Virus record (IMG/VR): IMGVR_UViG_3300027905_000035
Coordinates: 1-20,351 of that record
Reading direction: 5' to 3' (one strand)
Origin: a virus
DNA length: 20,351 nt
In this document: piece after piece, positions 2,623 to 19,439 of the stretch
How positions within the stretch are numbered: position 1 is the stretch's first letter
Layout: each line of letters opens with the position of its first letter
Program-made: the position numbers and the translations under genes
Notes under the pieces: model-generated
What the model was told of the DNA's origin: nothing
Database searches by the model: none
What the model saw: the letters and a program-made list of their open reading frames with translations, nothing else

Positions 2623-4334
2623 CACAACACCATCAGTTCATAGTCGCTGCCGATCACCATGCCATCACCCGGTTTGATGGCCCGCGCGATCGCCATGATC
2701 AGCGCCACGATGCCGTCGATCTTGTTCTCCGGGCGTTCCTTCCTTGGATAGATGTTGTCCTTGGCATCCATGTGGGCCACCACGTTCGATGCCATCCAAG
2801 TGAGCACTGGGTCGCCGTCGTGAATCAATTTGCGTTGCAATACCAGCGCCTCAAGCGTCTTCATCGGCTCTGAAAAATTGAGCACCGTCGGGCGCACTTC
2901 GATCATGGGCAAACCCTCTGCCAGCATGCGTGTTGAGAGTTGCGTGGCCTGGAACGGGTCGTAGGCCACGGCCTGCACCTCAAAGCGCGAGGCCAGTTCC
3001 ACCAGCTCGCCCTCGATCCAACCGAAGTCGATGACATTGCCCGGTGTCACGGTAAGGCGACCGCTTCTGGCCCAGCCAGCGTACTGGCTGTTCTCGGACG
3101 CAGACACCGTGTCCTCCGGCAGCCAGTACCGGCTGAACACCGCGTAGGCACCGGCGACGTCCGGGTGCTGGAACACCAGCACCAAAGCGGCCACGTCCGT
3201 TTTACTGGCCAGATCCAATCCAATCCAGCACGGCTGGCCAACGAACGCTTCAATATCCAGGGCAGGATTGGCGCAAGCATCCCAGGCGCGCATATCCATC
3301 CACGCGGTATCGGCGTTGACCCACTCGTTGAGATGCTTGGTCTTGAAATTGTTCACGGCGCTGGGCAATTGCATGGCCTTGGCCTGCAGCGGCGCCAGCA
3401 CTTCCGGGCGCACCGAGATGCCCCAATTCGGATTGGCCTTGATCAGCGCGGTCTCCAGCGTCCAGTCGTCCCCGTCATCGAGCCCATAGACGATGCCAAA
3501 CTGGCTGTCGTCCTCGAAGACGCCATCGAGCAGGCGGGTCACAAAGGTGCGAATCTCGTAGCAAATGCCGGAGCGGTTGCTGCCGGCCGTGGTGATCACC
3601 CACAGGAGCGAGTTATCGCGCTTGCCGGTGCCGGTTTCCACCACATCGTAGACCGTGCGCGTTTTGTGGGCGTGCAGTTCGTCCACGCAGCCGAAGTGGA
3701 TGTTGAGCCCGTCCAGGGTCGAACCTTCTGCGGACAGCGCTTCGAATTTCGAGCCACTGGCCATCACATGCATGTTGTGCGCGCCGACCCCGACGCCAAA
3801 GCGTGAGCGAAATCCAGCGGACTGGCGCGCCATGGTCTGCGCATCGCCAAACACAATGCGCGCCTGGTCACGTGTGGTCGCCAGCGAATACACCTCGGCG
3901 CCACCTTCACCATCAGCCGCCAGCATGTACAGCGCCAGCGCCGAGGACAGCGTGGACTTGGCGTTGCCGCGCGGCACCTCGATGTAGGCACGCCGAAACC
4001 GGCGCTTGCCATCAGGCTTGACCCAGCCGAACACGGTGGTCAGGATGAATACCTGCCATGGCTCCAAGTGGATCGGCTGTCCGGCCAGCGGGCCTTTGAC
4101 GTGGGGCAGGCGTTCAAGGAACGCGCACAGGTTGTCTGCCGGAGAAAACGATTTACCCGATCGGTCCGCCAGCTTTGGATTGAAACGATAGGGGCTGGCT
4201 TTGCCCTTGAACTTGACCAGGTCGTTCAATTGCCGCTGGCAGGCCTGCTTTACCCATCGGCAGGCGGAAATATCACCTTCCACTACTGCTTCGGCGTAAC
4301 GACGGGCTGCGGTGACGTAGTTAGAGGTTGCCAT
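2622..4334 (-). CDS. Terminase large subunit (DNA-packaging ATPase/nuclease)
   Basis: The motor that cuts concatemeric phage DNA and pumps it into proheads. From the ATG at 4334 the protein is 570 residues, normal for the family. The ATPase domain shows a Walker A-type loop PRGNAKST at about 121-128 and a Walker B with catalytic acid, FGCVDELHAH, near 215-223. The nuclease domain starts at WIGLDLASKTD (Asp374 and Asp380) and contains the later acidic strand AYDPFQAT. An ATG at 4346 is in frame, but 4334 gives the standard N-terminus (MATSNYVTAARRYA) and shares its initiation context with the preceding gene. It overlaps the upstream glycosyltransferase-like gene by 14 bases and the portal gene by 1 base. 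Confidence 0.95.
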   Translation of the reverse strand: MATSNYVTAARRYAEAVVEGDISACRWVKQACQRQLNDLVKFKGKASPYRFNPKLADRSGKSFSPADNLCAFLERLPHVKGPLAGQPIHLEPWQVFILTTVFGWVKPDGKRRFRRAYIEVPRGNAKSTLSSALALYMLAADGEGGAEVYSLATTRDQARIVFGDAQTMARQSAGFRSRFGVGVGAHNMHVMASGSKFEALSAEGSTLDGLNIHFGCVDELHAHKTRTVYDVVETGTGKRDNSLLWVITTAGSNRSGICYEIRTFVTRLLDGVFEDDSQFGIVYGLDDGDDWTLETALIKANPNWGISVRPEVLAPLQAKAMQLPSAVNNFKTKHLNEWVNADTAWMDMRAWDACANPALDIEAFVGQPCWIGLDLASKTDVAALVLVFQHPDVAGAYAVFSRYWLPEDTVSASENSQYAGWARSGRLTVTPGNVIDFGWIEGELVELASRFEVQAVAYDPFQATQLSTRMLAEGLPMIEVRPTVLNFSEPMKTLEALVLQRKLIHDGDPVLTWMASNVVAHMDAKDNIYPRKERPENKIDGIVALIMAIARAIKPGDGMVIGSDYELMVL

Positions 4335-4935
4335 CGGTCCAGTCATTTGAGGCTTGGCGAATGCGCCTGACCGCTTCTGGGTCGCCTATACGATGGCCTT
4401 GGCGCGGGTGCTGTCGCCAATGCCGTCCGATAATGGGCAGGTGCAGCACATCGCCCCCCTTGGCAACGAGCAGCGTCAGCAGCCAGTCGGAAAAATTGTT
4501 GATGTCGGTGGTTTCCTTGAGCACGGCCTCGACGGCGAGTCGACGCATCACGATCAGGCCGTGCACATGGCTGCCGCTGCTGGCGTGCTGCCGGCGGCTG
4601 TAGGTCAAACGCCGTACAGCAATGTCTCGCCCGCTTTCGTTGGTCAGCGTTTCGTCGGTGTAGGCCATCACCGCCTGCGGGCAGGCATCCAGCGCATCGG
4701 CCAGCCGCGTGAAGGCACTCGCTTCGTACAGGTCGTCGGGATCGACGTAGGAAACCAGGGGCAAGATGCCCTGTGCATAGCCAGCGGCACGAGCCTCGCC
4801 AATGCGGCCCGGAATCCCCGGCAAGATGTGCAACTGGATCGGTGCGCCCGCGAGGCTGGCGATGCAGGCCTCGCGCCATTGGGCAGGCTCGTATAGGGTG
4901 AGCAGATGAACATCGATGCGCGCTTCGGTTGCCAT
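4321..4935 (-). CDS. Glycosyltransferase family 2-like protein inside the terminase operon
   Basis: A 204-residue protein with the look of a short GT-A-fold glycosyltransferase. It has an N-terminal beta strand and helix (RIDVHLLTLYEP, then CIASLAG), a middle segment GEARAAGYAQG preceding VSYVDPDDLYEA, where DPDD (about 65-68) takes the place of the metal-binding DxD motif, and a C-terminal part with NNFSDWLLTLLVAKGG and RHWRQHPRQGH, resembling the acceptor-side W-L and 'YRxHxxQ' segments of GT2 enzymes. If active it would transfer a sugar from a nucleotide-sugar donor, to either a virion protein or a host glycan. It lies between the small and large terminase genes and overlaps the latter. 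The start at 4935 is 8 bases after the small terminase stop. The family call is by motif only, and the acceptor is unknown. Confidence 0.7.
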   Translation of the reverse strand: MATEARIDVHLLTLYEPAQWREACIASLAGAPIQLHILPGIPGRIGEARAAGYAQGILPLVSYVDPDDLYEASAFTRLADALDACPQAVMAYTDETLTNESGRDIAVRRLTYSRRQHASSGSHVHGLIVMRRLAVEAVLKETTDINNFSDWLLTLLVAKGGDVLHLPIIGRHWRQHPRQGHRIGDPEAVRRIRQASNDWTDGNL

Positions 4936-4943
4936 CAGTCCGT

Positions 4944-5405
4944 CTATCCCGCGATGTCCGCCCAAGGATCGAGGTCGTCCTCAGCGGCTTCCATCGGCAG
5001 CGTTACGCGCGAACGCGAGGCTGGCGTGAAGCCCATCTCGGTGGCGGCCTTGGTCATGATCTGCGCCTGCTTGTTGGCAATCGCCAGATACGGGGACTGC
5101 ATCGGCACCCCGGTGTTAGGCGCCTTGATGAGCAATCCGGTCTTGTTGATGCCGGCTTGCGCTTTGCGATAAAGGTCGGCGGCACATGCCCACACTTCAA
5201 GCACTGACATGTCGAGTTTCTTCAACAGGTGCGGCGGCGCGCATTCCAGTGCATAGCGCCAGGCCGACCTCGCGCCTTCGCTCATGTACTCGGGCGGCTC
5301 GACCAACTCTCCTTGCGGCTTGGGCTCGCGCAGGTTGGTCCGGCATTTCTGCAGCGTGCCTTTGATTTGCTTGACTGTGGTGGGCAGCGGTTTGCGACCG
5401 GCCAT
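4944..5405 (-). CDS. Terminase small subunit, P27 family
   Basis: The DNA-recognition partner of the large terminase, which binds the packaging site and forms a ring. The 153-residue length is typical. The N-terminus MAGRKPLPTTVKQIKGT is the P27-family signature (GRxPxPtxlkxlxGt). It is followed by a helical core with SEGARSAWRYAL and the conserved VLEVWACAADLYRKAQ and KQAQIMTKAATEMGFTPASRSRV segments, and ends acidic (DDLDPWAD). The ATG at 5405 is preceded by a weak AGGA motif 10 bases away. The upstream gap carries GC-rich palindromes that could include the packaging site it recognises. Confidence 0.9.
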   Translation of the reverse strand: MAGRKPLPTTVKQIKGTLQKCRTNLREPKPQGELVEPPEYMSEGARSAWRYALECAPPHLLKKLDMSVLEVWACAADLYRKAQAGINKTGLLIKAPNTGVPMQSPYLAIANKQAQIMTKAATEMGFTPASRSRVTLPMEAAEDDLDPWADIAG

Positions 5406-5509
5406 AACGATTCCATCCTGGGGGGAGTCCCCCCTGTTTCAATTTGCACGCACAAAAATTTGACTGGGCGCACGCATCGCTCGAACGCGATGCCAAAGAA
5501 TTCACCCCC
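5406..5509. other. HNH-small terminase intergenic region with palindromes; candidate cos/packaging site
   Basis: This gap holds a perfect palindromic arm pair GGGGGG-AGT-CCCCCC at 5420-5434 and a 7-bp inverted repeat GCATCGC / GCGATGC with a 6-base loop at 5474-5493. A further 6-bp pair, CACCCC / GGGGTG at 5503-5520, overlaps the HNH stop codon. In HK97-type phages with 3'-overhang cos ends, the cos site lies close to the HNH and small terminase genes, so this is the natural place for one. No T run follows any stem, so these are not ordinary terminators. The cos assignment is inference. Confidence 0.35.
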
Positions 5510-5887
5510 CTACCGGGGTGTGGGCCTGCGTCGTGCGCTTTCACGCGCGGACTTGGCGTTGTGGCAGGACACGCACAGCGACTGCAGGTTGGCAGCATCA
5601 AAGCGTGCGCCACCTTCCTTGATCGGTTTGACGTGATCTACAACCTTGGCCGGAACAACGCGACCGGCGGCCTCACAGGCCACACACAACGGGTGCGTGG
5701 TCAGGTGCGCGGCGCGAACGGCTCGCCAATCGCGCGACTGATAGAAGCCGACTTCGGCATCGAAGCTGCGACGTTTCCGGCCGTAGTCACGGTGGATGAC
5801 GGACCGATGTGTCTCGCAGTGCCCGGGCACAGCCAGCACTGCTAAACAACCCGGATACCGACAAGGAGTTGGCGCGCTTCGAGGCAT
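5510..5887 (-). CDS. HNH endonuclease (packaging-associated)
   Basis: A 125-residue HNH nuclease. The catalytic beta-beta-alpha-metal fold is seen as CVAC (about 68-71), VVDHVKPIKEGG (His85), then DAANLQSLCVSCHNAKS (Asn100, Cys105, Cys108, His109), giving a complete H-N-H set plus the structural zinc cysteines. The N-terminus has a second Cys/His cluster (C9, C14, C24, H27). HNH proteins next to terminase genes in HK97-type phages work with the large terminase to cut cos ends, and this position fits. I start at the ATG at 5887 (MPRSAPTPCRYPGC), since this gives the usual N-terminus; a longer in-frame extension to 5989 exists but looks non-coding. No good ribosome binding site is visible for either. 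Confidence 0.88.
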   Translation of the reverse strand: MPRSAPTPCRYPGCLAVLAVPGHCETHRSVIHRDYGRKRRSFDAEVGFYQSRDWRAVRAAHLTTHPLCVACEAAGRVVPAKVVDHVKPIKEGGARFDAANLQSLCVSCHNAKSARESARRRPTPR

Positions 5888-6006
5888 CTGCGGTGGATTT
5901 CCAACTGATTCAAAAAAGAAGCGATTTCCTGGGAGATTTCGCTTGGCTTCTCGCGGGAATGAAGCGTTCATACGAACACCATCAACCACCCAGAGGAACC
6001 AAAACC
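5888..6006. other. Divergent intergenic region between HNH gene and rightward gene pair
   Basis: The 119-bp space between the leftward HNH gene and the rightward 65-residue gene. It must hold the start signals for the rightward pair if they are transcribed independently. I see an AGAGGA ribosome binding site before the ATG at 6007 but no convincing -35/-10 pair. Confidence 0.4.
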
Positions 6007-6204
6007 ATGTCCTACACCAGCAACGAATTCACCGTCGATGAAATCGGTTTCATCCAAATCGCACTGACAAAAGTGCTTGCCGCCGCAGCGCGGGGCGAAC
6101 TCGATCTCAACCGACTGGCCCGCGAAGAACTTGCTTCGCGCGGTCTCAATGACCAAGGCGTCTGGGTCGGCTTCGATCGCGCCAAACAAATCCACAACGT
6201 CTGA
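6007..6204 (+). CDS. Small protein of unknown function (65 aa), rightward accessory gene
   Basis: A 65-residue, mildly acidic, helix-rich protein (MSYTSNEFTVDEIG... ending in DRAKQIHNV). I do not recognise a family. AGAGGA lies 9 bases before the ATG, which decides this start over in-frame codons further upstream at 5809 and 5959 that would overlap the HNH gene. It is read against the prevailing direction and is followed 16 bases later by the DUF3489 gene, so the two probably form one rightward transcript. The sequence has no signal peptide, membrane segment or catalytic motif. The pair looks like a lysogenically expressed accessory insertion. Confidence 0.75.
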   Translation: MSYTSNEFTVDEIGFIQIALTKVLAAAARGELDLNRLAREELASRGLNDQGVWVGFDRAKQIHNV

Positions 6205-6220
6205 ATTTCAGGAGATCCAC

Positions 6221-6694
6221 ATGACAACGCAACTCACACCAGCCCAACACGCCATCCTGTCCTATGCTCATCAGCACACCGACGGCAAGATCGTCTGGTT
6301 TCCAGAGAACATCAAAGGCGGTGCGCGCAACAAGGTCCTCGCAGGACTCGTCAATCGCGCCCTCATCACTACAGACCAGAAGGACTGGTTCATCGCTGCC
6401 GAGGGTTACGACGCGCTCGGTATTCCACGCAAGGCGCCGGTCAGCATCGAGGTGATTGACGCGGTCATCGAATCTGCCACGCCACGCACCCGCGACAACA
6501 GCAAGCAAGCGCAAGTGATCGCCATGCTCAAGCGTCCCGAGGGCGCGACCATCGCGCAAATTTGCGCAGCAACCGGATGGCAGGCACATACAGTGCGCGG
6601 CACGTTTGCCGGCGCATTCAAAAAGAAACTCGGCCTGGAAATCACCTCAACTAAGGAGCAAGGCAGCGAGCGGATTTACACGATCGCCGGTTGA
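6221..6694 (+). CDS. DUF3489 domain protein (winged-helix-like)
   Basis: A 157-residue protein whose C-terminal half has the DUF3489 signature: KQAQVIAMLKRPEGATIAQI, then CAATGWQAHTVRGTFAGAFK and KKLGLEITS, ending in ERIYTIAG. This reads as a winged helix-turn-helix and is known from phages and plasmids of proteobacteria; its molecular role is not established. The N-terminal half (LTPAQHAILSYAHQ..., KVLAGLVNRALI) looks like a second winged-helix unit. The AGGAG site 6 bases before the ATG at 6221 is strong. It is the second gene of the rightward pair, and its 3' end overlaps the 3' end of the leftward methyltransferase gene by 19 bases, so the two transcripts converge. Confidence 0.85.
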   Translation: MTTQLTPAQHAILSYAHQHTDGKIVWFPENIKGGARNKVLAGLVNRALITTDQKDWFIAAEGYDALGIPRKAPVSIEVIDAVIESATPRTRDNSKQAQVIAMLKRPEGATIAQICAATGWQAHTVRGTFAGAFKKKLGLEITSTKEQGSERIYTIAG

Positions 6695-7929
6695 TCCATC
6701 TCGGACGGAAGTCCGAATGTCGCGCCATCACTGGCGCGCTTTGCTGCTTGTCCGGTGTAGTCCTGCCAGCGACGCACGATCACATCGACATACTGCGGAT
6801 CAAGCTCGATCAGTCGTGCCCGACGTCCGGTTTTTTCGCAAGCAATCAGCGTTGTTCCAGAGCCGCCGAAGGGGTCAAGCACGATGTCCTTGGTCTTGCT
6901 GCTGTTGCGCACGGCACGCTCCACCAGTTCCACCGGCTTCATCGTTGGGTGCAGGTCATTTTTCTGCGGCTTCTTGATGTTCCAGACGTCGCCCTGATCG
7001 CGTGCGCCACACCAGAAGTGATCGGTACCATCGCGCCAGCCATACAGAATCGGCTCATATTGGCGCTGGTAATCGGCACGGCCCAGCGTAAAAGTGTTCT
7101 TGGCCCAGATGATGAACGTCGACCATTTGCCACCAGCAGTGCGGAATGCCGACTGCAGGGTGTCGAGTTCAGATGAACTCATGGCGATGTAGACCGCACC
7201 CTTCGTGACGGTCAAAATGTTCTGGCAGGCGGCAACGAGAAACGCGCCGAATCCATCACCCAGGTTGTCGTTCAGGATGGGACGGTTTTTGCCGCGCATC
7301 TTGTCTTTGGCGGTGTTGGCGTAATTCACGTTGTACGGTGGATCGGTGAATGTCATGTCGACCAGTTCGTCACCGAGCAGCGTCTGGTAGTCCTCGGACT
7401 TGGTGGCATCGCCACACAGCAGTTTGTGCTCGCCCATCAGCCACACATCGCCGGTTCTGGAAATAGGCGTTTCGGTTAGCTCGGGAACGGCATCATCGTC
7501 GGTGAGACCGTCAGTGGTATTTTCTCCAGCAATCAATGCTTCCCACTCTTCGGGGGAAAAGCCCGTCAAGCCAAGGTCGAAGCCAGCCTCTTTCAATTCA
7601 GCCAATTCGATGCCGAGCAGTTCATCTTCCCAAGAGGCGTTTTCACCGATTTTGTTGTCGGCCAGGATCAGTGCCCGGCGCTGGGTGTCGGTCAAATGTT
7701 CCAGCGGCACGACGGGAATATCGGTCATGCCGAGCTTGCGGGCGGCCAGCAAACGGCCATGGCCCGCAATCACATTGTTCTGACCATCGACCAGAATCGG
7801 CGCACCCCAGCCGAACTCACGGATGCTGGCGGCGATCTGCGCCACTTGCGCATCCGAATGCTGCTTGGCGTTGCGGGCATACGGGATCAGCGAGTCGATG
7901 GGTCGGTAGTGAATCTGCAGCGCGCTCAT
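6676..7929 (-). CDS. ParB/Srx-domain DNA methyltransferase (N4-cytosine/N6-adenine type)
   Basis: A 417-residue fusion. Residues 1 to about 95 form a ParB/sulfiredoxin-like domain (IDSLIPYARNAKQHS, then VIAGHGRLLAARKLG with the GHGR motif at 56-59). The rest is an amino-methyltransferase with the catalytic DPPY at 196-199 and the SAM-binding motif FGGSG at 354-358, followed by ELDPQYVDVIVRRW. DPPY before the FxGxG motif is the beta-class order of CcrM-like enzymes. Such orphan enzymes are common in phages and probably protect phage DNA from host restriction or alter gene expression. No restriction nuclease lies beside it. The ATG at 7929 has only a weak ribosome binding site and is preceded closely by a terminator-like hairpin, suggesting it heads its own late or regulated transcript. 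Confidence 0.92.
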   Translation of the reverse strand: MSALQIHYRPIDSLIPYARNAKQHSDAQVAQIAASIREFGWGAPILVDGQNNVIAGHGRLLAARKLGMTDIPVVPLEHLTDTQRRALILADNKIGENASWEDELLGIELAELKEAGFDLGLTGFSPEEWEALIAGENTTDGLTDDDAVPELTETPISRTGDVWLMGEHKLLCGDATKSEDYQTLLGDELVDMTFTDPPYNVNYANTAKDKMRGKNRPILNDNLGDGFGAFLVAACQNILTVTKGAVYIAMSSSELDTLQSAFRTAGGKWSTFIIWAKNTFTLGRADYQRQYEPILYGWRDGTDHFWCGARDQGDVWNIKKPQKNDLHPTMKPVELVERAVRNSSKTKDIVLDPFGGSGTTLIACEKTGRRARLIELDPQYVDVIVRRWQDYTGQAAKRASDGATFGLPSEMDQPAIV

Positions 7930-8140: not shown

Positions 8141-8560
8141 TTACCTTACATGGCTCAGGATTTTGGAAGGTTGGCCAGCATTGAGATTCGTGGCGACGAT
8201 CTCCAGCGCCTTCTGCCAGCGACGCCACGCTGTCGAGCGGTCGCAGGCAAAACGGATCGTGATGTCGCGCCAGCCATACCGTTTGGCGCGCATCCAGACC
8301 AGATGGCGCTGCTCAATCTCCAGCCACAGCACCCATTGCATCGTTTCCAGCATGCGGTCCACATCTTTGGGGTCTGGCGGAAACGATCGATATACGGCGC
8401 CATCTGCTGCGAACACTTCCCACTGCTGTCGCACGATTGGCGGCCAGGTATTGAAATAGCCCTGCACGCGCACAGGGGGCAACCGCCGGCCTGTGGTCGC
8501 GGCTTCCTCGAATCGCACGGCCACGTCATCGATGGTCCAGATGTTCAGGGCTCTAATCAC
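8141..8560 (-). CDS. DUF6362-like protein with C-terminal helix-turn-helix; possible late regulator
   Basis: A 139-residue protein resembling the DUF6362 family of prophage proteins: WTIDDVAVRFEEAATTGRRLPPVRVQGY near the N-terminus, then an aromatic helix-rich middle (MQWVLWLEIEQRHLVWMRAKR). The C-terminal segment YGWRDITIRFACDRSTAWRRWQKAL (about 95-119) reads as a helix-turn-helix like those of sigma-4 or phage Q/ArpU-type regulators. The start is a GTG at 8560, supported by GAGAGGG about 7 bases upstream and overlap with the preceding stop. It is the last early gene, directly before the control-like gap and terminator, which is where a late activator or antiterminator usually sits. That role is inference; the family name is from memory. 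Confidence 0.7.
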   Translation of the reverse strand: MIRALNIWTIDDVAVRFEEAATTGRRLPPVRVQGYFNTWPPIVRQQWEVFAADGAVYRSFPPDPKDVDRMLETMQWVLWLEIEQRHLVWMRAKRYGWRDITIRFACDRSTAWRRWQKALEIVATNLNAGQPSKILSHVR

Positions 8561-8762
8561 GGCGTGGCCCTCTCGATCCGTAGAGCCGTTCGCCGATGCG
8601 GCGGACAATCTCGCGCTCGACGAAATCGAGTCGCGCATCCGACTCGTTGACCACGAGAATGTGCTGATCCTGCCAACCACGCTGTTTGACGGCGTCAAGG
8701 TCGACGGGTTCGGGCTGCATGCGGCCCAGGGGAGACGGGTAGCGCGATGGAGGGATTTTCAT
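8553..8762 (-). CDS. Small phage protein of unknown function (69 aa)
   Basis: A 69-residue basic/acidic mixed protein (begins MKIPPSRYPSPLGRMQPEPV, ends in YGSRGPRRD). I do not recognise the family. A perfect AGGAGG ribosome binding site, located in the last codons of the resolvase gene, is 6 bases from the ATG at 8762, and there is only one base between the upstream stop and this start, so it is clearly translated and coupled. It overlaps the DUF6362-like start by 8 bases. The Pro-rich N-terminus and the DFVEREIVRRIGERLYG helix suggest a small partner protein rather than an enzyme. Confidence 0.8.
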   Translation of the reverse strand: MKIPPSRYPSPLGRMQPEPVDLDAVKQRGWQDQHILVVNESDARLDFVEREIVRRIGERLYGSRGPRRD

Positions 8763-8763
8763 A

Positions 8764-9228
8764 TCACGCCTCCTGGGTGTCGATCGCCCAATGCAGCAAG
8801 GCCAGGGCATCAGCTTCGTTGTCGTCCGTCACCGGATGGCCTTTTGCACGCATGGCCGCGATCACATCATCCTTGCCGGCATTGCCTTTGCCGGTAGCGT
8901 GCTTTTTTATCGTGCCGACCGGTACGCCCTGGTACGGAATGTTGCGGTGCTCGCACCAGGTGGTAAGCGTGGCCATCAGGCCGCCATAAACGTGTGCGGC
9001 ATCGACGCCAACGTGTCGGCGCACTTCCTCGAAATACACCGCGTGTATGTCGTTCGCCGTGGAATGGATTTCCGACAGCCAACGCTTGAACCGCAGGAAG
9101 CGCATGCCGCCGCCCTCGAATCGTTGCGGGCGGAAACTCACGAATCCGTGAGCCATGTCTCCGTCACTCGGGCGCAAGGCCCAGCCGGTGGTGGTGCCCA
9201 GGTCCAGGGCCAAGATGATCTGCGTCAT
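8764..9228 (-). CDS. RuvC-like Holliday-junction resolvase
   Basis: A 154-residue RNase H-fold nuclease of the phage RuvC-like type, resolving branched DNA made by recombination and replication before packaging. Key features are the first catalytic strand MTQIILALDLGTTTGWAL (Asp9), the second acidic strand VYFEEVRRH (Glu67/68), the basic loop VGTIKKHATGKGNAGKDDV, and the final NEADALALLHWA with Asp140. The ATG at 9228 has AGGA upstream; a longer in-frame extension to 9459 crosses the repeat-bearing gap and is not credible. It follows the primase-helicase after a 140-bp gap containing a large inverted repeat and is coupled to the 69-residue gene downstream. Confidence 0.88.
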   Translation of the reverse strand: MTQIILALDLGTTTGWALRPSDGDMAHGFVSFRPQRFEGGGMRFLRFKRWLSEIHSTANDIHAVYFEEVRRHVGVDAAHVYGGLMATLTTWCEHRNIPYQGVPVGTIKKHATGKGNAGKDDVIAAMRAKGHPVTDDNEADALALLHWAIDTQEA

Positions 9229-9253
9229 GATTTCCGTCCTTTTTTGTTTTGGC

Positions 9254-9347
9254 CTGACGCAGCTGACGGAGTCTGTCGAAACCCTCCATGAGGCGCGCGT
9301 CACGCGCACGTGTAGAGAGTTACGTAGAAAAGCGTCAGCTGCGTCAG
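9254..9347. repeat. 15-bp inverted repeat with iteron-like halves; candidate origin or control site
   Basis: CTGACGCAGCTGACG at 9254-9268 is repeated as its exact reverse complement CGTCAGCTGCGTCAG at 9333-9347, separated by 64 bp. Each arm itself contains two copies of the hexamer CTGACG spaced 9 bp, so the region has four copies in all. The spacer includes GC-rich GCGCGCGTCACGCGC. It lies between the primase-helicase and resolvase genes, the only sizeable gap inside the replication block. It could be a replication-initiation site, a regulator-binding site or a long mRNA hairpin. Confidence 0.6.
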
Positions 9348-9368
9348 ACCCGTGAATTTGCATAGGGG

Positions 9369-11660
9369 TCAGTTGTCGGCGTAGGGGGTGTAGGCAGGCG
9401 TGGGCGGAGCTTTGAGGCCAATGCCCTGGAACCCACGAATGCCCACGCCGTTGCGCCATTTCTCCAGCCCGCGCGTCATAAGCAGATCGGAGAATCGACG
9501 TTGCGAGCCGATAAATTCACCAGCTGCCTCGGCCCATTGTTTCCAGTCGTTGAACAACTCGGCCGTCAGCGACTTGGCGTTGGGAACGCGAACGCAGTTC
9601 TCGTCCAGCCAGCGGCCGAGCGCGTCCTCGGCCTCGAAATACTCCTCAGTCGCGTCCATCACCTGTTGCGGCGGCTCGAGGCGACCCAGACGCTGCCAGG
9701 CGAGACATCCGTCCAGCGCCCACGCCAAAATGCCATCGCGCTCGGCCAGCAATTTCTGTTGCAGATGCTTGTCGCGTCGCTCGGGCGGAATGGTCACCGT
9801 GAACGGAATCAGGTGCAGGCGCCGCTTCATCGCCTCATCGATGTTGCGAATCGCTGGCTTGTGGTTGCCCGCCACGAACAACTTGAACTGCGGAAAGAAC
9901 TCGAAAAAATCCTGACGCATGAAACGCGCCGAGATCTTGTCGCCGCCGGTCAGGTTCTTGACCTTGGATTCCGCCCAGCGCCGACCTTGCTCGGTTTCGA
10001 TGGCGGCCACAAAGCGGGCACCGCGCAGCCCAGCCATGTCGGTTGGATGCCGGTCGGTGCGCGTTTCCATGAAGGTGTCCATGGGTGCATTCGTGGCGTA
10101 GTCACCAAGAATGGTGGCCAGCGTGTTCACGAATACCGACTTGCCGTTTGCGCCCGTGCCATAAAGAAAAAACAAGGCGTGTTCGCGCGTCGAGCCGGTC
10201 AGGGCATAGCCGACCATGCGTTGCAGATAGGTTTGCAGCGTCTTGTCGCCTCCGGTCACTTCATCGAGAAACTGCCGCCAGATGGGGCAGTCACCGCGTG
10301 GCGTGGCGGTGGTGATCTTGGTCATGCGATCGAGCCGGTCGTGTGGCCGCATCCGGCCATGCCGCAGGTCGATCACGCCGCCTGGCGTATTCAAAAGCCA
10401 CTGATCGGCATCCCATTCGTCGGTCGTGGCCGCATGACGCCGGTCAGCACGCGCCAGGCGCTCGACGCCGGAAACGGTGCTGGCCGCTGCGAGCTTGGCT
10501 GCGATTTTGGGATTGCTGGATTTGACCGACGCGTGGCGGCAAACGTGGCGAACGAGATCCGTCGCCGCCAGGGTGTCTTCCGAACGCCAACGCTGGCCAT
10601 CCCAGACCAGCCACTTGCCCCATGCCGCCACATAGCGCCAGTCCTGGTGATAGCGGCGAGTAAAGCTCAGGGCCAGTGCGTCCTCGGTACCCCAGACCGT
10701 TTCCTCGCCCGCGCTGGTATCAGTTTCAGGTCCGGGTTCATCGCCAATCCGGTGCATCTGAATGCGCGGGCCGTGGACAATGAAGCCGGCAACCTCAAAA
10801 CCCTCGCCGTGTGCGTCTGCGACGTCCCACCCTACCGGAGCATCTTCGGGTGGATACAGGATGTGGCAGCTCGCAGCCCCGGCCGTGAGGATGGCTTGTG
10901 CGGCCCGATCAGCGTACTCCCAACCCGGCTTGTCCTTGTCCGGCCAGATGAGCACGGCCTTACCGACCAGCGGCGACCAGTCGGTCTTCTCAATGGGTGC
11001 ATTGGCACCATGCATGGCCGTGGTCGCGCAAATGCCGATATCGATCAGCACCTGTGCGCACTTTTCTCCCTCGACCAGCACCACTTGATCGGCACTCACC
11101 ATGCCGGGCTGGTTGTACAGTGGCCGTGGATCGGGTGGTGCCATCTTGCGGCGCTTGGCATCCCATGGCCGGAATTCCTTCTTTCCACCGGGTGGGTCGT
11201 AGCGGTAGACGACCGCGATCAGGTTACCGGCAGCATCGCAGTAATCCCACTTGGCAGTGGCCGGGCCGAGGTCGTCGACCATCGACGCCGATTTGGCCTT
11301 GCGTGCCGGTACCGAGCGCGCACGTCCCAGCAGATCGGCAGCCTCATCCAGCACGCGAGGAAAGTCGTTATGTACATCGGCGCCAAGGCAGGCCGCGATC
11401 AAGGCAAAAATATCACCACCATCGCCAGTCGCGCGATCGGTCCATAAGCCAGCTTTGTCACCTGTTAGCACCACCTCAAGGCTGTCGCCAGGACTGCCCA
11501 GCGTGTCGCCGATCAGAAACTTGGCTCCACGCTTTTTGCCGGCCGGGAACAGCGTGATCAACACCGATTCCAGGCGTGCGATCAAGTCGGCGCGAATCTG
11601 GTCACGTTCAGTGTCCCGGTTGTGATCTGCGGGATGGCTTGGGTCATTGAAGTCAATCAT
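9369..11660 (-). CDS. P4-type primase-helicase (toprim + SF3 helicase fusion)
   Basis: A 763-residue replication protein that would make primers and unwind phage DNA. An N-terminal segment (KRGAKFLIGDTLGSPGDS, then GLWTDRATGDGGDIFALI) resembles the CHC2-replacing region of phage/plasmid primases. A toprim-like domain follows with VVLVEGEKCA near 193-202 and VLIWPDKDKPG near 236-246. The C-terminal superfamily 3 helicase has Walker A GTGANGKS at about 501-508, then RGARFVAAIETEQG, KNLTGGDKISARFM and KLFVAGNHKPAI, the classic P4-family order. The ATG at 11660 overlaps the AlpA-like gene stop (ATGA). The inverted repeat immediately downstream could be its substrate. Confidence 0.93.
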   Translation of the reverse strand: MIDFNDPSHPADHNRDTERDQIRADLIARLESVLITLFPAGKKRGAKFLIGDTLGSPGDSLEVVLTGDKAGLWTDRATGDGGDIFALIAACLGADVHNDFPRVLDEAADLLGRARSVPARKAKSASMVDDLGPATAKWDYCDAAGNLIAVVYRYDPPGGKKEFRPWDAKRRKMAPPDPRPLYNQPGMVSADQVVLVEGEKCAQVLIDIGICATTAMHGANAPIEKTDWSPLVGKAVLIWPDKDKPGWEYADRAAQAILTAGAASCHILYPPEDAPVGWDVADAHGEGFEVAGFIVHGPRIQMHRIGDEPGPETDTSAGEETVWGTEDALALSFTRRYHQDWRYVAAWGKWLVWDGQRWRSEDTLAATDLVRHVCRHASVKSSNPKIAAKLAAASTVSGVERLARADRRHAATTDEWDADQWLLNTPGGVIDLRHGRMRPHDRLDRMTKITTATPRGDCPIWRQFLDEVTGGDKTLQTYLQRMVGYALTGSTREHALFFLYGTGANGKSVFVNTLATILGDYATNAPMDTFMETRTDRHPTDMAGLRGARFVAAIETEQGRRWAESKVKNLTGGDKISARFMRQDFFEFFPQFKLFVAGNHKPAIRNIDEAMKRRLHLIPFTVTIPPERRDKHLQQKLLAERDGILAWALDGCLAWQRLGRLEPPQQVMDATEEYFEAEDALGRWLDENCVRVPNAKSLTAELFNDWKQWAEAAGEFIGSQRRFSDLLMTRGLEKWRNGVGIRGFQGIGLKAPPTPAYTPYADN

Positions 11661-11911
11661 TCAGCGTCCCCCGCAGACGTGTCCGAAGACTGATCGTCTC
11701 GGCCCTGGACTGCGGTGCTGCGCGCGGCCCACGCCGACAGGTCGGACAATCGATAGCGCACCAAGCCACCCATCAGGTAGTGAGGAATGCGGTATTTGGT
11801 GCGCATCGCCTGGTCAGCGAACCAGTAGTACGGCAGACGCAGTGCTGACGCTGCCTGCTTGGCATCGATCATCGGCTCGGCGCCGGTAATTGGATGGGTG
11901 TGGTCAGTCAT
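11657..11911 (-). CDS. Small AlpA/MerR-like DNA-binding protein
   Basis: An 84-residue protein with one helix-turn-helix/wing domain: MIDAKQAASALRLPYYWFAD, RTKYRIPHYLMGGLVRYRLSDLSAWA. The pattern 'xxYRIPHYxxGxLVRYRxxDLxxW' is the wing of excisionase/AlpA-like MerR relatives. The C-terminal tail is Ser/Asp-rich and probably flexible. The ATG at 11911 has GGAGG 8 bases upstream and follows the nuclease stop by 2 bases; its own stop overlaps the primase start. It may bind DNA in the replication region or act as a small regulator. An upstream in-frame start at 11956 is inside the nuclease gene and unsupported. Confidence 0.82.
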   Translation of the reverse strand: MTDHTHPITGAEPMIDAKQAASALRLPYYWFADQAMRTKYRIPHYLMGGLVRYRLSDLSAWAARSTAVQGRDDQSSDTSAGDAE

Positions 11912-11913
11912 TC

Positions 11914-12645
11914 TTAAGTCCTCCAGCAACGGTCTGCCCACGCGCAGAACTTGCATTCGAAATGGGTGGAATCGGTGAACGAGCGCGGCAGCAGTTCCCC
12001 CGCCTCACTGGCCGTGATCACGCGTGCGGCGCGATCAGACATGCGCTGTGCCAGCCCCGCATCAAACGGGATCAGCTCGGCGTAGATCTCCATCGTGTCG
12101 GCGTTGACGGCGGTGAACAGTGCCGGGTGTTCGTGCAACTCGAGATAGCTCTGGTACAGCGCGATCTGCGCTGCATAGACGGGCTTGGATACCGCCAGCT
12201 TGTGTTTCTCGACATCGCGCCAGGACTTGGCACCAAGGCATTTGTTCTCCCACAGCGATGGGTAGGCAAAGCCCTCCGGTCCAGAGATCAGCACGCCATC
12301 GACGTGGCCACGCAGGCGACCACCGGCCACCGAAAATCCGAATTGGTGGCCATTGGCGTCCTCGGTCTTGAGTTGGAAACCCGCCATGCGCAACCAGCGG
12401 ATCACCATGTCCTCGGTGCGGTGGCCGCGTTCGAAGATGCGCAGCAGACGGCCGGAGAAACCTTTGCCGTGATCCACGGGTGCCTTGGCGTACTCGTACT
12501 GGAGTTGTCGCTCGCAGGCTGCGCCCAGACGCGACGCGCCCAGGTACTCGCGCGGCGGAGTGGCATCCCGTTCGGCTTCCAGCGCAATGTCGAACAGTTC
12601 CTGCAGTCGGCCCGAGAGACTGGCCGATGAATTGAAATCGATCAT
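11914..12645 (-). CDS. Cas4-like PD-(D/E)XK exonuclease with Fe-S cysteines
   Basis: A 243-residue RecB/Cas4-type nuclease. The active site shows RGHRTED (about 73-79), GHVDGVLI with Asp116, WENKC with Glu133 and Lys135, and the helix with Tyr157/Gln160 (KPVYAAQIALYQSY). Cys44 near the N-terminus plus Cys231, Cys234 and Cys240 near the C-terminus form the four-cysteine iron-sulfur pattern of Cas4/AddB-type enzymes. It is not beside cas1/cas2, so a CRISPR role is unlikely. Next to a Sak4-like ATPase and a DUF669-like protein it probably resects phage DNA ends for strand annealing. The ATG at 12645 overlaps the upstream stop (ATGA) and has GGGAG 8 bases before it. Confidence 0.88.
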   Translation of the reverse strand: MIDFNSSASLSGRLQELFDIALEAERDATPPREYLGASRLGAACERQLQYEYAKAPVDHGKGFSGRLLRIFERGHRTEDMVIRWLRMAGFQLKTEDANGHQFGFSVAGGRLRGHVDGVLISGPEGFAYPSLWENKCLGAKSWRDVEKHKLAVSKPVYAAQIALYQSYLELHEHPALFTAVNADTMEIYAELIPFDAGLAQRMSDRAARVITASEAGELLPRSFTDSTHFECKFCAWADRCWRT

Positions 12646-13145
12646 GGCGACGTCTCCCAAGGCAGGTCGTCCACCATGTCGGCAAACGGGTTCTCGGACA
12701 GCGGCGGTACCGACTCGCGGATCGGGTCATTGACCGGCGTCACACCGAGCATGCGCACCGGCGGGTATTTGCTCCGTTCATGCTGCGCGGCCATCTCGTC
12801 CACATACGCTGTGACGATGGCTTCGATCACGGACAGCGCCTCTGCTTCGGAGTAAGCCCCGAGGGGCTTGTCGAAACCGATGATGGCCGCCGCTTCACCG
12901 AAGAACTTGAGGCACATGCGCATGGCGGCGTTTTCCAGAAGCGTGGCATCAACCATGGCGGCCTCCGGTGGCAGACCCTGGTCCAGCGCACGGGTCCAGG
13001 ACCCGTACAGCGTGTGAAACGCGTCCTGGCAGCGGCGTGAGCAAAACACCCAGTCGATCGGGTAACGCCGGGGGTCGCCCACCCGGTGCCGGTTTTCCGT
13101 ATGGCCGAAGCCGCGTGCCTGACGTGAGCAGACCCAGCATTTCAT
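12642..13145 (-). CDS. DUF6511-like zinc-ribbon protein
   Basis: A 167-residue protein. The N-terminus has a four-cysteine zinc site, CWVC (3-6) and CSRRC (35-39), enclosing the conserved RQARGFGHTENRHRVGDPRR and YPIDWVF segments that I associate with DUF6511. The middle has a helical pair (LENAAMRMCLKFFGEAAAII, then EAEALSVIEAIVTAYVDEM), and the C-terminus is Pro/Asp-rich. The function is unknown. Its fixed place between the single-strand-binding-like protein and the exonuclease suggests an accessory role in recombination or replication. The start at 13145 is 12 bases after the upstream stop, and the stop overlaps the exonuclease start. Confidence 0.8.
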   Translation of the reverse strand: MKCWVCSRQARGFGHTENRHRVGDPRRYPIDWVFCSRRCQDAFHTLYGSWTRALDQGLPPEAAMVDATLLENAAMRMCLKFFGEAAAIIGFDKPLGAYSEAEALSVIEAIVTAYVDEMAAQHERSKYPPVRMLGVTPVNDPIRESVPPLSENPFADMVDDLPWETSP

Positions 13146-13157
13146 GGCGGGCTCGCA

Positions 13158-13802
13158 TCACTGTGCCCACGCCGGTTTGCCGGTCGCAGAGGGTTGGGCC
13201 GCACGCGCCGGGGCAGCGAATGCCGGGGTCGCTTGTGCAGGGGCGCCGGAATTGCCACCACCCGTCGGGCTCTTGGGCACGCCGCCCATCAATGCCGCGT
13301 AATCCTTGTGATCTGGTTCGATCGCGATCTTCACAACATTGCGGTCTTCACCCTTGGCGTCCTTTTCCACATCGACGCGAGCGATGAACTCGATGCCGTC
13401 CAGATCCGCGAAGCTGTTGATCCGGCGCGCGGCAGCCGCTTGCGGCGTGTTGTCCTGCGGGTGGACGTTGCGTGAGCTGTTGAGCGCGGCGCGGATGAAA
13501 CTGCGTCCCATCTGACCCCAGGTCGGACCCTTTGCGGAGTGCAGGCCGACGTTCGACCACATCTTGCGTTTGGCGAATGGCCCGCCGGTGACGACGAATT
13601 CGCAGGCGAGGTACACCGCGCCGGTGTCAAAGGACTCGGTGGCATACCCGCCGGTCCAACCCTGGCTGTGGTCGTCATGGCCACCCGGTTTGATGGTCAT
13701 GCGCAGCGGCACGACGCTGCCCTTGGGGATCAGGTCGAATGCGCCGTGCTGGGCTTCGGCGTCGTTGAAATCGTTCCAGTTGCTGGCTGTATTGGCGTTC
13801 AT
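13158..13802 (-). CDS. DUF669-like putative single-strand DNA-binding protein
   Basis: A 214-residue protein with an OB-fold-like N-terminal part: FDLIPKGSVVPLRMTI, YLACEFVVTGGPFAKRKMWSNVGL, GQMGRSFIRAAL and DLDGIEFIARVDVEKDAKGEDRN, in the same order as DUF669-type phage single-strand-binding proteins. The C-terminal third is low-complexity Gly/Ala/Pro (GGGNSGAPAQATPAF...), like the flexible tails of SSB proteins, although it lacks the usual acidic tip. It is coupled by an ATGA overlap to the Sak4-like ATPase, which in other phages acts with an SSB partner for annealing recombination. The name is from pattern and context, not from a search. Confidence 0.65.
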   Translation of the reverse strand: MNANTASNWNDFNDAEAQHGAFDLIPKGSVVPLRMTIKPGGHDDHSQGWTGGYATESFDTGAVYLACEFVVTGGPFAKRKMWSNVGLHSAKGPTWGQMGRSFIRAALNSSRNVHPQDNTPQAAAARRINSFADLDGIEFIARVDVEKDAKGEDRNVVKIAIEPDHKDYAALMGGVPKSPTGGGNSGAPAQATPAFAAPARAAQPSATGKPAWAQ

Positions 13803-14647
13803 GATGGGTCCTTGATTGATGGGGTCAGCAGTACGGGTGCGACCGGGGCCGGTTGTTGGCCCAGGCACTTGGCGATGAGTTTTCCGAGGTGGGGCTCCTC
13901 GATGGCGTCCAGCCGACCGCTGCGGTCCTTGCTGGGATAGCCGAACGGGTTGTCGGCGCGGGTGACAAAACCCCGGTAGTTGGTGCCGTCGTCGGCCTTG
14001 AGGATGGCCAGCGTCACGACCTCATCAAGCACGCCGGGCAACTCGAGCGCGGTCTTGCTGCCTTCCAGTTGCAGCTGGTAGAAGCGCCGGTTGAAGTCAT
14101 CCATCTTCTCTTCGAGGATGGCGACATAGATGACGTGCTTGTCGCGGACATGCTGCAGGTGCGTGAGCGCGGTGATCATTTCCTGACCCAGCTGTCCATA
14201 CGCGCCTCGGCTGTCGGGCTTGCCGGTCTTCTCGCTGAACGCCTGCGGCTGGGTCTTGCACCAGGCAAAGCACAGGCGCGAGAGCACGGTCAGGCTGTCA
14301 ACGAAGTAGGTGTCGTACTTGGCCAGCTGCGTCGGGTCACCAAACTTGGTGCAGACGTGCTCGAAATGCGCCTGCGAGAAAGCCTGTTCAGCGCTGGCGG
14401 TCGGCATGGGCCCGGCCAGGAATACCACCAGATCGCGGAACTCCGGCCAGGTGCGCGGACGCACCGTGTCGCCGGTCCAATCCCGCACCGACAGGTCGCC
14501 GGCCTCGAGATCCACGAACAGGGTGGTGTTGGTCGGCAGCGTCTTGAGCTGGGAGGTTTTGCCGACACCCGCCGGGCCGACCAATGCAACCTTGGCGCTG
14601 TGGCGTTCCTTGAGCCGCTCTTCGGCGGAGATGATTGGCAGTGCCAT
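13799..14647 (-). CDS. Sak4-like RecA-core ATPase (recombination)
   Basis: A 282-residue P-loop ATPase. Walker A is GPAGVGKT at about 24-31, followed by TTLFVDLEAG; Walker B is YDTYFVDSLT near 111-120; and a later strand HVIYVAILEEKMDD carries sensor-like residues. The length and this RecA-like core, with no extra RecA domains, fit the Sak4 group of phage annealases, which promote single-strand annealing with a partner SSB. Generic annotation would be 'AAA/ATP-binding protein'. The ATG at 14647 shares a base with the BRO gene's stop, and the 3' end overlaps the SSB-like gene. The tail (LGQQPAPVAPVLLTPSI) is probably disordered. Confidence 0.82.
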   Translation of the reverse strand: MALPIISAEERLKERHSAKVALVGPAGVGKTSQLKTLPTNTTLFVDLEAGDLSVRDWTGDTVRPRTWPEFRDLVVFLAGPMPTASAEQAFSQAHFEHVCTKFGDPTQLAKYDTYFVDSLTVLSRLCFAWCKTQPQAFSEKTGKPDSRGAYGQLGQEMITALTHLQHVRDKHVIYVAILEEKMDDFNRRFYQLQLEGSKTALELPGVLDEVVTLAILKADDGTNYRGFVTRADNPFGYPSKDRSGRLDAIEEPHLGKLIAKCLGQQPAPVAPVLLTPSIKDPS

Positions 14648-15396
14648 CACGCCACCTCGCGGATCAGATCGGTCACGGCCGGATTCCAGAGGATCTGGTA
14701 ACCGGAGTGCCCGTTGCGCGAGAATGGCAGGGCTTCCGCCCATTGCTGGCCAGCGTCCGTCAGCTCCCACTCGTCGCGGTCGTTCTTGAACTGAAGGCCC
14801 AGGGACTGCAGCCGCGTGTTGATAGCGCGTGCGGACATGCCGACGCGTTCACCGACCTGCGTCGGGTTCAAGCTGCAGATTGGCTCATTGGCCGCCGGCA
14901 GCACCTTGCGCAGAGAGTCGACCGCCAGACCCGTGTTCTCATGGATCACCGTCAGCGTTGCCGCCATGGCGATGCCGGGTTTTACGCCGGGGACGCGAGC
15001 AATGGCCTCGCCGATGGACAGGATGGCGTTGACACGATCCTGTGTTGGCGCTGGCAATGCAGCAACCGACCCGGCTGACGCATACGACCCGGTCTTGCGG
15101 ATGGATGGCAGCACTTCGTGGGTGACCCAGCGCTTGAAACGTTTGGCCTCGGGCTTGCGGCTGCCCAGCACCAGATTGAACAATCCGGACTCGTTCACCA
15201 CGGTCATGTCCTGCGACCCGCCAGGGGTGTGAATTGAATTCACCCCCTTTTCGTCATCGTCAAGACGCTCCAGTGCTTTGCGATCGAGGTTCAGGGTAGA
15301 CAGCACGTCAGCTGCGACAAACGCCGGTTCGCCGTTGTCACCCATGACGACGCGCACGTTGCTGGATTCAAAGTTGAATGCGACGAGCTGGTTCAT
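14647..15396 (-). CDS. BRO-N domain phage antirepressor
   Basis: A 249-residue protein. Residues 1 to about 105 form the BRO-N domain: VRVVMGDNGEPAFVAADVLSTL, DDDEKGVNSIHTPGG, VNESGLFNLVLGSRKPEAKR and FKRWVTHEVLPSIRKTGSY. The C-terminal part (residues about 165-249) has a helix-turn-helix-like segment PTQVGERVGMSARAINTRLQSLG and a WELTDAGQQWAEALPF stretch similar to antirepressor C-terminal domains. Such proteins bind or displace repressors during induction. Here it sits in the middle of the early operon, coupled to both neighbours, rather than next to a repressor gene, so its target cannot be named. Confidence 0.9.
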   Translation of the reverse strand: MNQLVAFNFESSNVRVVMGDNGEPAFVAADVLSTLNLDRKALERLDDDEKGVNSIHTPGGSQDMTVVNESGLFNLVLGSRKPEAKRFKRWVTHEVLPSIRKTGSYASAGSVAALPAPTQDRVNAILSIGEAIARVPGVKPGIAMAATLTVIHENTGLAVDSLRKVLPAANEPICSLNPTQVGERVGMSARAINTRLQSLGLQFKNDRDEWELTDAGQQWAEALPFSRNGHSGYQILWNPAVTDLIREVA

Positions 15397-18835: not shown

Positions 18836-18905
18836 TTATTACTCCTTGAACAATGCCGTGTGGCCCGCCTCCCATGAAGTGGCAACGCCGCCAGCGTTAC
18901 GACAA
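18836..18905. other. Gap between the PIN gene and the 762-aa gene
   Basis: A 70-bp spacer, the largest in this cassette, holding the AAGGAG ribosome binding site of the next gene and a weak 5-bp hairpin (AACGC / GCGTT). I see no terminator or clear promoter, so the three genes are probably one transcript. Confidence 0.4.
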
Positions 18906-19427
18906 TCATGGGATGATCCCCATCCGAATCTTGGTCTTGATGCTCGACAGCCAGTCCTCGCGGTACTGCAATGCGAGTGCATCGAGGTTGACGCGGCCGA
19001 CGCCGGCTTTGCGCGCCAGATCCTCCAACGACACCGCGCAGTCGAGCCAGCCGAGGCCGTGGGACGCCACCAACGCCGCCTTGTCGGCTGTGGTGACGAC
19101 GATGACTGCCGAAGGCAGCAGCTTGTTGGCGAGCAGCCATGCGAGTAGGTGTTTCTCGCCGTCGTCGAGTGTGCTGCAGGAAGGATGGGCGAGTACCAGA
19201 GACGCCAGCTCCTTGCGCGTCACCGGATGCTCGCCCGCGAGACCGGCCTTCAGATTGGCGGGCGGAACCGTGACATGGCGAGGATCACCGGGGTTGCCGG
19301 TCAGCGTTTCCTCGACGCATTTCTGAACGGTCTCGATGGCGAAATGGCTGCTGATCGCCGTCCAGCACCCCGTGCGGAATGATTCGAGAATGACATTGGT
19401 GTCCGCGAAAATTCGGATTTTCGGCAT
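18906..19427 (-). CDS. PIN-domain protein (putative ribonuclease toxin)
   Basis: A 173-residue PIN-fold protein. The first strand KIRIFADTNVILE carries Asp9 and Asn11; ETVQKCVEETLTG supplies Glu39/40; STLDDGEKHLLAWLLA has the D-G-E motif (Asp89, Glu91); and VIVVTTADKAAL carries Asp115. All four acidic positions are present, so it is probably an active metal-dependent RNase. Beyond the core there is a C-terminal extension of about 30 residues. The ATG at 19427 has AGGTGAG 6 bases upstream and lies 12 bases after the metallopeptidase stop, so the two are co-expressed. PIN toxins are normally restrained by a partner; here the XRE/ImmA-type protein upstream is the obvious candidate. Confidence 0.87.
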   Translation of the reverse strand: MPKIRIFADTNVILESFRTGCWTAISSHFAIETVQKCVEETLTGNPGDPRHVTVPPANLKAGLAGEHPVTRKELASLVLAHPSCSTLDDGEKHLLAWLLANKLLPSAVIVVTTADKAALVASHGLGWLDCAVSLEDLARKAGVGRVNLDALALQYREDWLSSIKTKIRMGIIP

Positions 19428-19439
19428 ACGTCGCTCACC

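Follow-up and report, generated by a model that had tools for sequence, protein, structure and literature searches.

The palindromic element described in this study, located between the genes of a primase-helicase and a RuvC-like resolvase in a virus record of 20,351 bases (the window, comprising the whole stretch of DNA that was analysed), probably serves DNA replication in cis, in all likelihood as a phage origin, whose iterons would be bound by the winged helix of the adjoining primase-helicase. Judged from sequence, a cis-acting replication element recognized by this protein is much the best account of the observed features. A candidate origin had already been proposed in a preliminary description of this DNA, and this reading is supported by the recurrence of the repeats in relatives, by the link between the repeats and a domain of the primase and by the placement of P4 crr and of the corresponding elements of PICI/SaPI, SCCmec and pRN1.

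Architecture of the palindromic element

The element is built around the sequence CTGACGCAGCTGACG at 9254-9268, whose exact reverse complement is found at 9333-9347 after a spacing of 64 bp, as had been claimed in the preliminary description, and the pair lengthens to 18 bp at 94% (9251-9268 and 9333-9350) with inclusion of one G-T. The claim of two copies of CTGACG per arm is equally borne out, with this motif at 9254 and 9263 and its complement CGTCAG at 9333 and 9342 adding up to four copies. It is, however, not the unit of repetition as such. Each arm contains two 9-bp repeats (CTGACGNNN), and what is repeated is an iteron of 9 bp in which the G and the C of GAC do not vary (Table 1). In a search of the whole window, the pair is the sole exact inverted repeat of at least 12 bp within 100 bp, and an exact 15-bp inverted repeat within 100 bp was obtained in 1 of 300 order-2 Markov windows, in line with the claim that such an architecture is unexpected by chance.

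Table 1. Coordinates of the element, its parts and the adjoining genes in the window.
Feature	Position	Strand	Basis
Whole palindromic element (two inverted arms and core), candidate origin or cis replication element	9251..9350	.	inverted repeat; R1 match; recurrence in relatives
Primase-side arm (5' arm in gene sense)	9333..9350	-	18-bp inverted repeat, 94%; helix 1 covariation
RuvC-side arm (3' arm in gene sense)	9251..9268	+	inverted repeat; helix 1 covariation
Iteron CTGACGCAG	9339..9347	-	sequence; 9-bp period in arms of relatives
Iteron CTGACGCTT, in tandem with 9339..9347	9330..9338	-	sequence; 9-bp period in relatives
Iteron CTGACGCAG	9254..9262	+	sequence; 9-bp period in relatives
Iteron CTGACGGAG, in tandem with 9254..9262	9263..9271	+	sequence; 9-bp period in relatives
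Core between the arms	9269..9332	.	imperfect palindrome, GTAACT.../...GTTTCGA (gene sense); central alternating purine-pyrimidine CG/TG run
P4-family primase-helicase, presumed initiator	9369..11660	-	D5_N 3e-37, TIGR01613 1e-114, PRK07078
C-terminal winged helix of primase-helicase (residues ~678-753), presumed iteron-binding	9402..9629	-	AlphaFold2; RFX and 1ka8 fold matches; covaries with arms
RuvC-like Holliday junction resolvase, downstream neighbour	8764..9228	-	phrog_159 2e-33

Transcription on the minus strand proceeds from the primase-helicase through a gap of 140 nt (9229-9368) to the RuvC-like resolvase. According to the list of ORFs with their predicted gene starts, this is the only gap exceeding about 15 nt across 8553-15396, which agrees with its previous designation as the only sizeable gap of the replication block. 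Genes for a Sak4-like annealing protein and for an exonuclease resembling Cas4 belong to the same block. Within the gap, no match to an intrinsic terminator or a sigma-70 promoter was detected. The model R1, whose alignment includes the window sequence, matches the window at 9251-9351 with 100.2 bits on the minus and 59.9 bits on the plus strand.

Other parts of the window contain features that we record as separate observations. A small ORF at 8553-8810 on the minus strand, placed between the RuvC-like and DUF6362 genes, belongs to no Pfam family and resembles, as judged by eye, an ORF in the locus L359. At 19440-20297, also on the minus strand, we find an ImmA/IrrE-type metallopeptidase (PF06114) with similarity to capP in PADLOC (7e-19), whose two neighbours at 18906-19427 and 16547-18835 have no Pfam or PADLOC family. 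Together, these three genes (16547-20297) could form a regulatory or defence cassette.

Recurrence and variation among relatives

Related loci were collected in two scans of viral contigs, one with the RuvC-like protein and one with the primase, each providing at least 599 candidates of which 80 loci were kept, and further loci were added by a motif scan and a scan of cellular genomes, the latter contributing 80 loci that mostly reside in proteobacterial genomes. The closest annotated phage among the matches listed is AcaML1 of Acidithiobacillus caldus. The C-terminus of the primase is present in at least 238 loci, with a RuvC-like gene within 2 kb in 232 of the 238 and a gap of 125-149 nt between both genes in 191 of these 232. 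Of the six loci where no RuvC-like gene is found within this distance, five end at most 168 nt past the primase stop, and the sixth, L176, extends for 1,568 nt beyond it and contains the element but no RuvC. A stem finder assigned scores of at least 12 to the region behind 228 of 237 primase genes among the matches listed, leaving nine loci with no strong stem by this method, compared to 11 of 476 stretches that were drawn at random from these loci and may themselves include the element. The search for these repeats after the primase genes of other, related prophages, which had been suggested in the preliminary description, is thus strongly positive and, far from being absent in close relatives, the element was found in nearly all of the 238 related loci. 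One of the lysogens with the element is Comamonas granuli NBRC 101663 (L307/L310).

The distribution of the element follows the primase and not the resolvase. Among the matches listed in the 80 loci anchored on RuvC, R1 was detected at E<=0.01 in 39 of 43 loci with a full primase, and in all 43 at E<=1. It was found in none of 30 loci where the match to the primase stops near residue 300 and in none of seven loci with no visible primase, three of which hold less than 100 nt of upstream sequence. The RuvC-like gene is not needed for the element, and the latter is absent where RuvC follows another type of helicase. In the 30 of 80 loci with a shortened match (L023, L030, L034 and others), inspection by eye shows the RuvC-like gene after an N-terminal primase part that is fused to a RecA-like helicase. 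In these loci, an AT-rich ATATAAATCAAC core precedes RuvC and is flanked by other inverted iterons, namely AGTTGGC or CCAGATTGCGG, and it looks as if helicase and repeats had been swapped together.

Matches to R1 were obtained in 28 of 30 records, at one place each except for G019 and for adjacent double hairpins in G002 and G003. The second match in G019 (C1:34704-34796) is weak, with 29 bits, and is located 21 kb from the main element. In seven loci (L020, L040, L044, L048, L076, L078 and L016), an additional, shorter hairpin containing these iterons is found ahead of the main element. R1 also matches directly behind a related primase in the circular Methylobacterium plasmids pMNOD03 (31.5 bits, E 5e-5) and pCB376_1 (29 bits, E 2e-4). 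Among the 51 listed features of pMNOD03, whose gene tables are incomplete, the primase is the only named replication protein, accompanied by ParA. Altogether, R1 matched the region 3' of the primase in two of eight plasmid loci (L402, L406), with other inverted or repeated motifs in L405, L407 and L408 and little or different sequence in L401, L403 and L404.

The arms vary in sequence and retain their pairing. In an alignment of 42 sequences, 95.1% of cells are paired and 18 of 28 pairs have changed on both sides, a pairing value that is reached by none of 500 shuffles and is far lower in slid structures. In helix 1, which comprises the 18-bp arms, both-side changes are found for 12 of 18 pairs, and one arm position has G-C in 22 and U-A in 20 sequences. 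The columns without variation in the arms are the two outer letters, G and C, of a GAC that occurs twice per arm at a distance of 9 bp. Identity at a lag of 9 is 0.52 in both arms (109 unique left arms), compared to 0.18-0.36 for other lags between 4 and 16. In AcaML1, one arm contains three tandem copies (CTGACGGGT CTGACGGGT CTGACGGAT). The same arrangement with different units is found in divergent loci, including GGTGACAG (L353, L354), GTGACCG (L346), CCGACCGAA (L013, L057) and CGGCGCA (L069, L080, L081, L331), with the GGTGACAG-type iteron limited to the divergent L353, L354 and L358. The pairing of the arms could also reflect conversion between them instead of selection for a hairpin.

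Between the arms, the core has a median AT of 0.43 (n=174) and is not rich in AT, and it contains an alternating purine-pyrimidine run of at least 14 nt in 154 of 174 cases, compared to 1 of 174 after mononucleotide shuffling. A profile of the core alone assigned the orientation of the window to 220 of 238 loci, three of them as near ties, and the inverse orientation to nine, including L280 and L346 by small margins, with no match in the remaining nine. Separate inversions have occurred in L332 and in the clade of six loci around L089 (support 0.955). L332 resides within an otherwise forward clade (0.981). A change in position is found in L359 of Ramlibacter aurantiacus, where the primase-RuvC gap of 41 nt lacks the element, which is located intact 3 kb downstream. 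The flipped cores, which are found in 9 of 238 loci and stem from two or more independent events, might also recommend the element as a recombination or inversion site, such as an invertible segment, a resolution site or a small hairpin transposon. Yet, with one copy per phage at a fixed place behind one gene, rare flips, no linked invertase noticed and arms that follow a domain of the primase, we regard this as the least probable of the readings considered, and the flips are more easily understood as a by-product of pairing arms.

These rearrangements also bear on the question whether the element acts as DNA or as RNA. A structured RNA in the primase-RuvC transcript, be it an RNase III site, a leader or a regulator of RuvC translation, would be consistent with the compensatory changes, and a sense-strand RNA was first favoured based on the fold of 9230-9368 (z -7.2 on the minus compared to -5.4 on the plus strand as single-stranded RNA; -5.4 and -4.7, respectively, as single-stranded DNA) and on raw G-U counts in the 42-sequence alignment, which exceed those of A-C. 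It was dropped in light of event counting, the inversions and the relocation, and we now consider it very unlikely. When events were counted on a tree built from 162 unique gaps (from 208 registered stems, out of 219), 49 changes led from Watson-Crick to G-T and 45 to A-C (39 if the outermost position is left aside), besides 102 from one Watson-Crick pair to another. Since changes to G-T and A-C are about equal, the sense strand is not clearly preferred, although the returns to Watson-Crick, 25 from G-T versus 6 from A-C, would fit some constraint on this strand. An RNA is also at odds with cores whose orientation towards the genes has been reversed in two or more independent lineages, with an element residing 3 kb from both genes in L359 or in absence of RuvC in L176, and with the region of the element matching no Rfam family at gathering score. 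The four matches that Rfam returned at low threshold concern other kinds of families, were far under their cut-offs and were rejected. Collectively, the flipped cores, the relocation in L359 and the lack of a strand preference point to an element that acts as DNA, irrespective of its orientation and also from a distance.

The winged helix of the primase-helicase

Pfam assigns D5_N and DUF5906 as the only families to the primase-helicase. The protein contains what we take to be a TOPRIM-like motif and thus presumably a primase domain of the bacterial (TOPRIM) type. An AlphaFold2 model of its C-terminal 120 residues, based on 50 sequences, displays a winged helix with a mean pLDDT of 76 and values of about 84-90 over residues 41-110 of the modelled fragment. 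In VIA-align, this model shows highest similarity to the RFX DNA-binding domain (Z 10.2). The origin-binding domain of P4 (1ka8) aligns with a Z of 8.1 (rmsd 3.6, 78 aligned residues, 17% identity), where a value near 8 is middling. A search of the PDB with the sequence profile of the C-terminus gave no match, and phmmer with the whole primase provided weak matches, mostly to the helicase part.

A relationship between this domain and the repeats is apparent from their common variation. Given the distances of the helicase part and of RuvC, the sequence distance of the arms from locus to locus correlates with that of the winged-helix domains with a partial r of 0.578 (n=142), a value reached in none of 299 Mantel permutations, whereas the corresponding values are 0.005 for RuvC and -0.049 for the helicase part. 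Loci with a stem score below 12 were excluded from the tests, as were those lacking an alignable RuvC (in the 142-locus test only) and L004, L068, L077, L131 and L331, where the finder had taken a wrong or partial stem; by eye, L331 fits the relation. In L346, the helicase part is kept and both the C-terminal domain and the iteron are different. It is thus supported by sequence comparison that the repeats are tied to the DNA-binding domain of the primase. Part of the correlation could originate from a joint transfer of neighbouring DNA, though no correlation is seen for RuvC, the neighbour on the opposite side. As a separate observation, the gap behind the primase contains stand-alone small ORFs homologous to the winged-helix domain next to the element in two loci, L077 (E 1.5e-34) and L358 (8e-10), which are possible regulators or accessory binders.

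Sites of the iteron type can double as operators, and arms that follow the winged helix of the primase would equally suit an operator for autoregulation, where the primase or a regulator bound to the iterons controls RuvC or antisense transcription. This assignment appears highly improbable in light of the missing promoter match at the site, its placement behind instead of before the initiator gene and the relocation in L359, and neither the paired palindrome nor the 64-bp spacing would be needed for such a function.

Known counterparts and proposed function

In phage P4, the crr region (4291-4590) is located directly 3' of alpha (4636-6969, minus strand), similar to the element described here, which directly follows a P4-family, alpha-type primase-helicase. 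The 120-bp repeats of crr contain type 1 repeats at 9-bp spacing in both orientations, including copies of ACTGTTCAC that are 9 bp apart, and inverted arms of 12-15 nt that are 92-93% complementary (93% for the 15-nt arms) with 45 nt in between. Both systems thus share direct and inverted iterons with a period of about 9 bp and inverted arms, and their initiators share the fold of the C-terminal origin-binding domain, although the similarity to 1ka8 is middling and lower than to RFX. In contrast, the iterons are of the CTGACGCAG-type here and of the GGTGAACAGT-type in P4, whose type I iteron GGTGAACAG was not encountered; the core is not AT-rich as in crr; and a single element corresponds to two tandem 120-bp copies and a separately annotated rep_origin in P4. 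A single strand of the crr repeat folds with a z of -2.8 and forms no continuous stem, and R1 does not match phage P4.

A further counterpart is found in Sulfolobus plasmids of the pRN1 family. In the excerpts from Berkner et al. (PMC4234260), a stem-loop of 100 nt located 3' of the replication gene of pRN1 is needed, can be relocated and requires an intact stem. The same kind of origin is proposed there for the phages BIP-1 and BPP-1 and contrasted with P4 iterons, and the authors state in this part of the text that direct proof of origin function is lacking for the stem-loop of pRN1. As far as covered by these excerpts, the element resembles pRN1 in a stem-loop of about 100 nt 3' of the replication protein, whose structure is kept while its sequence varies, and in a protein combining an SF3 helicase with a C-terminal winged helix. 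Unlike the element, where 9-bp iterons reside within the stem, pRN1 has no iterons according to its authors in the same sections, and its protein is an archaeo-eukaryotic prim-pol. In PICI and SaPI, as described in sections of PMC6092414, the origin is found immediately 3' of the rep/primase gene, with two iteron sets flanking an AT-rich stretch; the element shares the location 3' of the rep gene and the two iteron sets around a core, which, in contrast, is GC-rich and alternating (AT 0.43), and these sections describe no covarying palindrome like the one found here. For SCCmec, the portion of PMC7581432 at hand reports that the isolated C-terminal domain of Cch2, a Primase_Cterm helicase, binds direct repeats 3' of its gene and that inverted repeats can be deleted without loss of binding. 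Both systems thus have repeats just downstream of a gene for a Primase_Cterm-type helicase at a putative origin, but in this portion the iterons of SCCmec are described as 5 nt long and located outside the palindrome arms, whereas those of 9 bp described here are within. Since some of the defining features that were tested for either class were not found, we do not classify the element as a P4 crr or a PICI origin, although it would work like them. What sets it apart from its counterparts is that iterons and a stem-loop are joined in a single long palindrome, which covaries and has a core rich in GC. Among open-access full texts, we found no paper on this element.

Since the rep_origin of P4 is separate from crr, the same layout need not mark the start site. 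The element might correspondingly act as a crr-like partner, needed in cis and serving as a binding site of the primase-helicase, with synthesis starting at another site that is poor in iterons or differently marked, as might be indicated by the second weak R1 match in G019. We consider this quite unlikely, given that 13 fully read phage contigs contain no second cluster of the arm motif besides scattered single matches at 12-13 of 15 positions, that R1 matches were confined to one place in the other records, the double hairpins aside, and that, in the parts of PMC7581432, PMC6092414 and PMC4234260 referred to above, the (putative) origin of SCCmec, PICI and pRN1 is the 3' element itself. In 13 related contigs, GC skew does not jump locally in any notable way where the element lies, and its detrended minimum is located 0.4-4.6 kb from the element in 11 contigs and is off by 25-28 kb in the other two. 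That the element is the start site itself, and not a crr-like partner, is the likeliest but a less certain part of our assignment.

In the mechanism that we propose for an origin, the C-terminal winged helix of the P4-family primase-helicase would bind the four 9-bp iterons, two in tandem per arm. The two facing pairs of iterons may load two opposed assemblies of the SF3 helicase, with the palindrome or the alternating CG core possibly easing opening. The helicases would then unwind outward and the primase domain lay the first primers on the exposed strands. In a more tentative variant, which we view as rather unlikely, torsion would drive the opening of a palindromic origin: supercoiling would extrude the iteron arms as a cruciform or convert the CG core into Z-DNA in place of an AT-rich melting region, the initiator would clamp the arms, the RuvC-like resolvase would remove the four-way junction and the flipped cores would be scars of resolution in the opposite sense.

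The element thus offers a probable origin for a large group of prophages, with at least about 600 candidates in each protein scan, and it would merge two types of origins that are set apart in the excerpts from PMC4234260, the iteron origins of the P4 kind and the stem-loop origins. Its natural iteron variants, matched to variants of the winged helix, may serve as a ready set for studying the code by which P4/D5-type initiators recognize their iterons. Through the copies that were flipped or relocated, its independence of orientation and position becomes directly testable.
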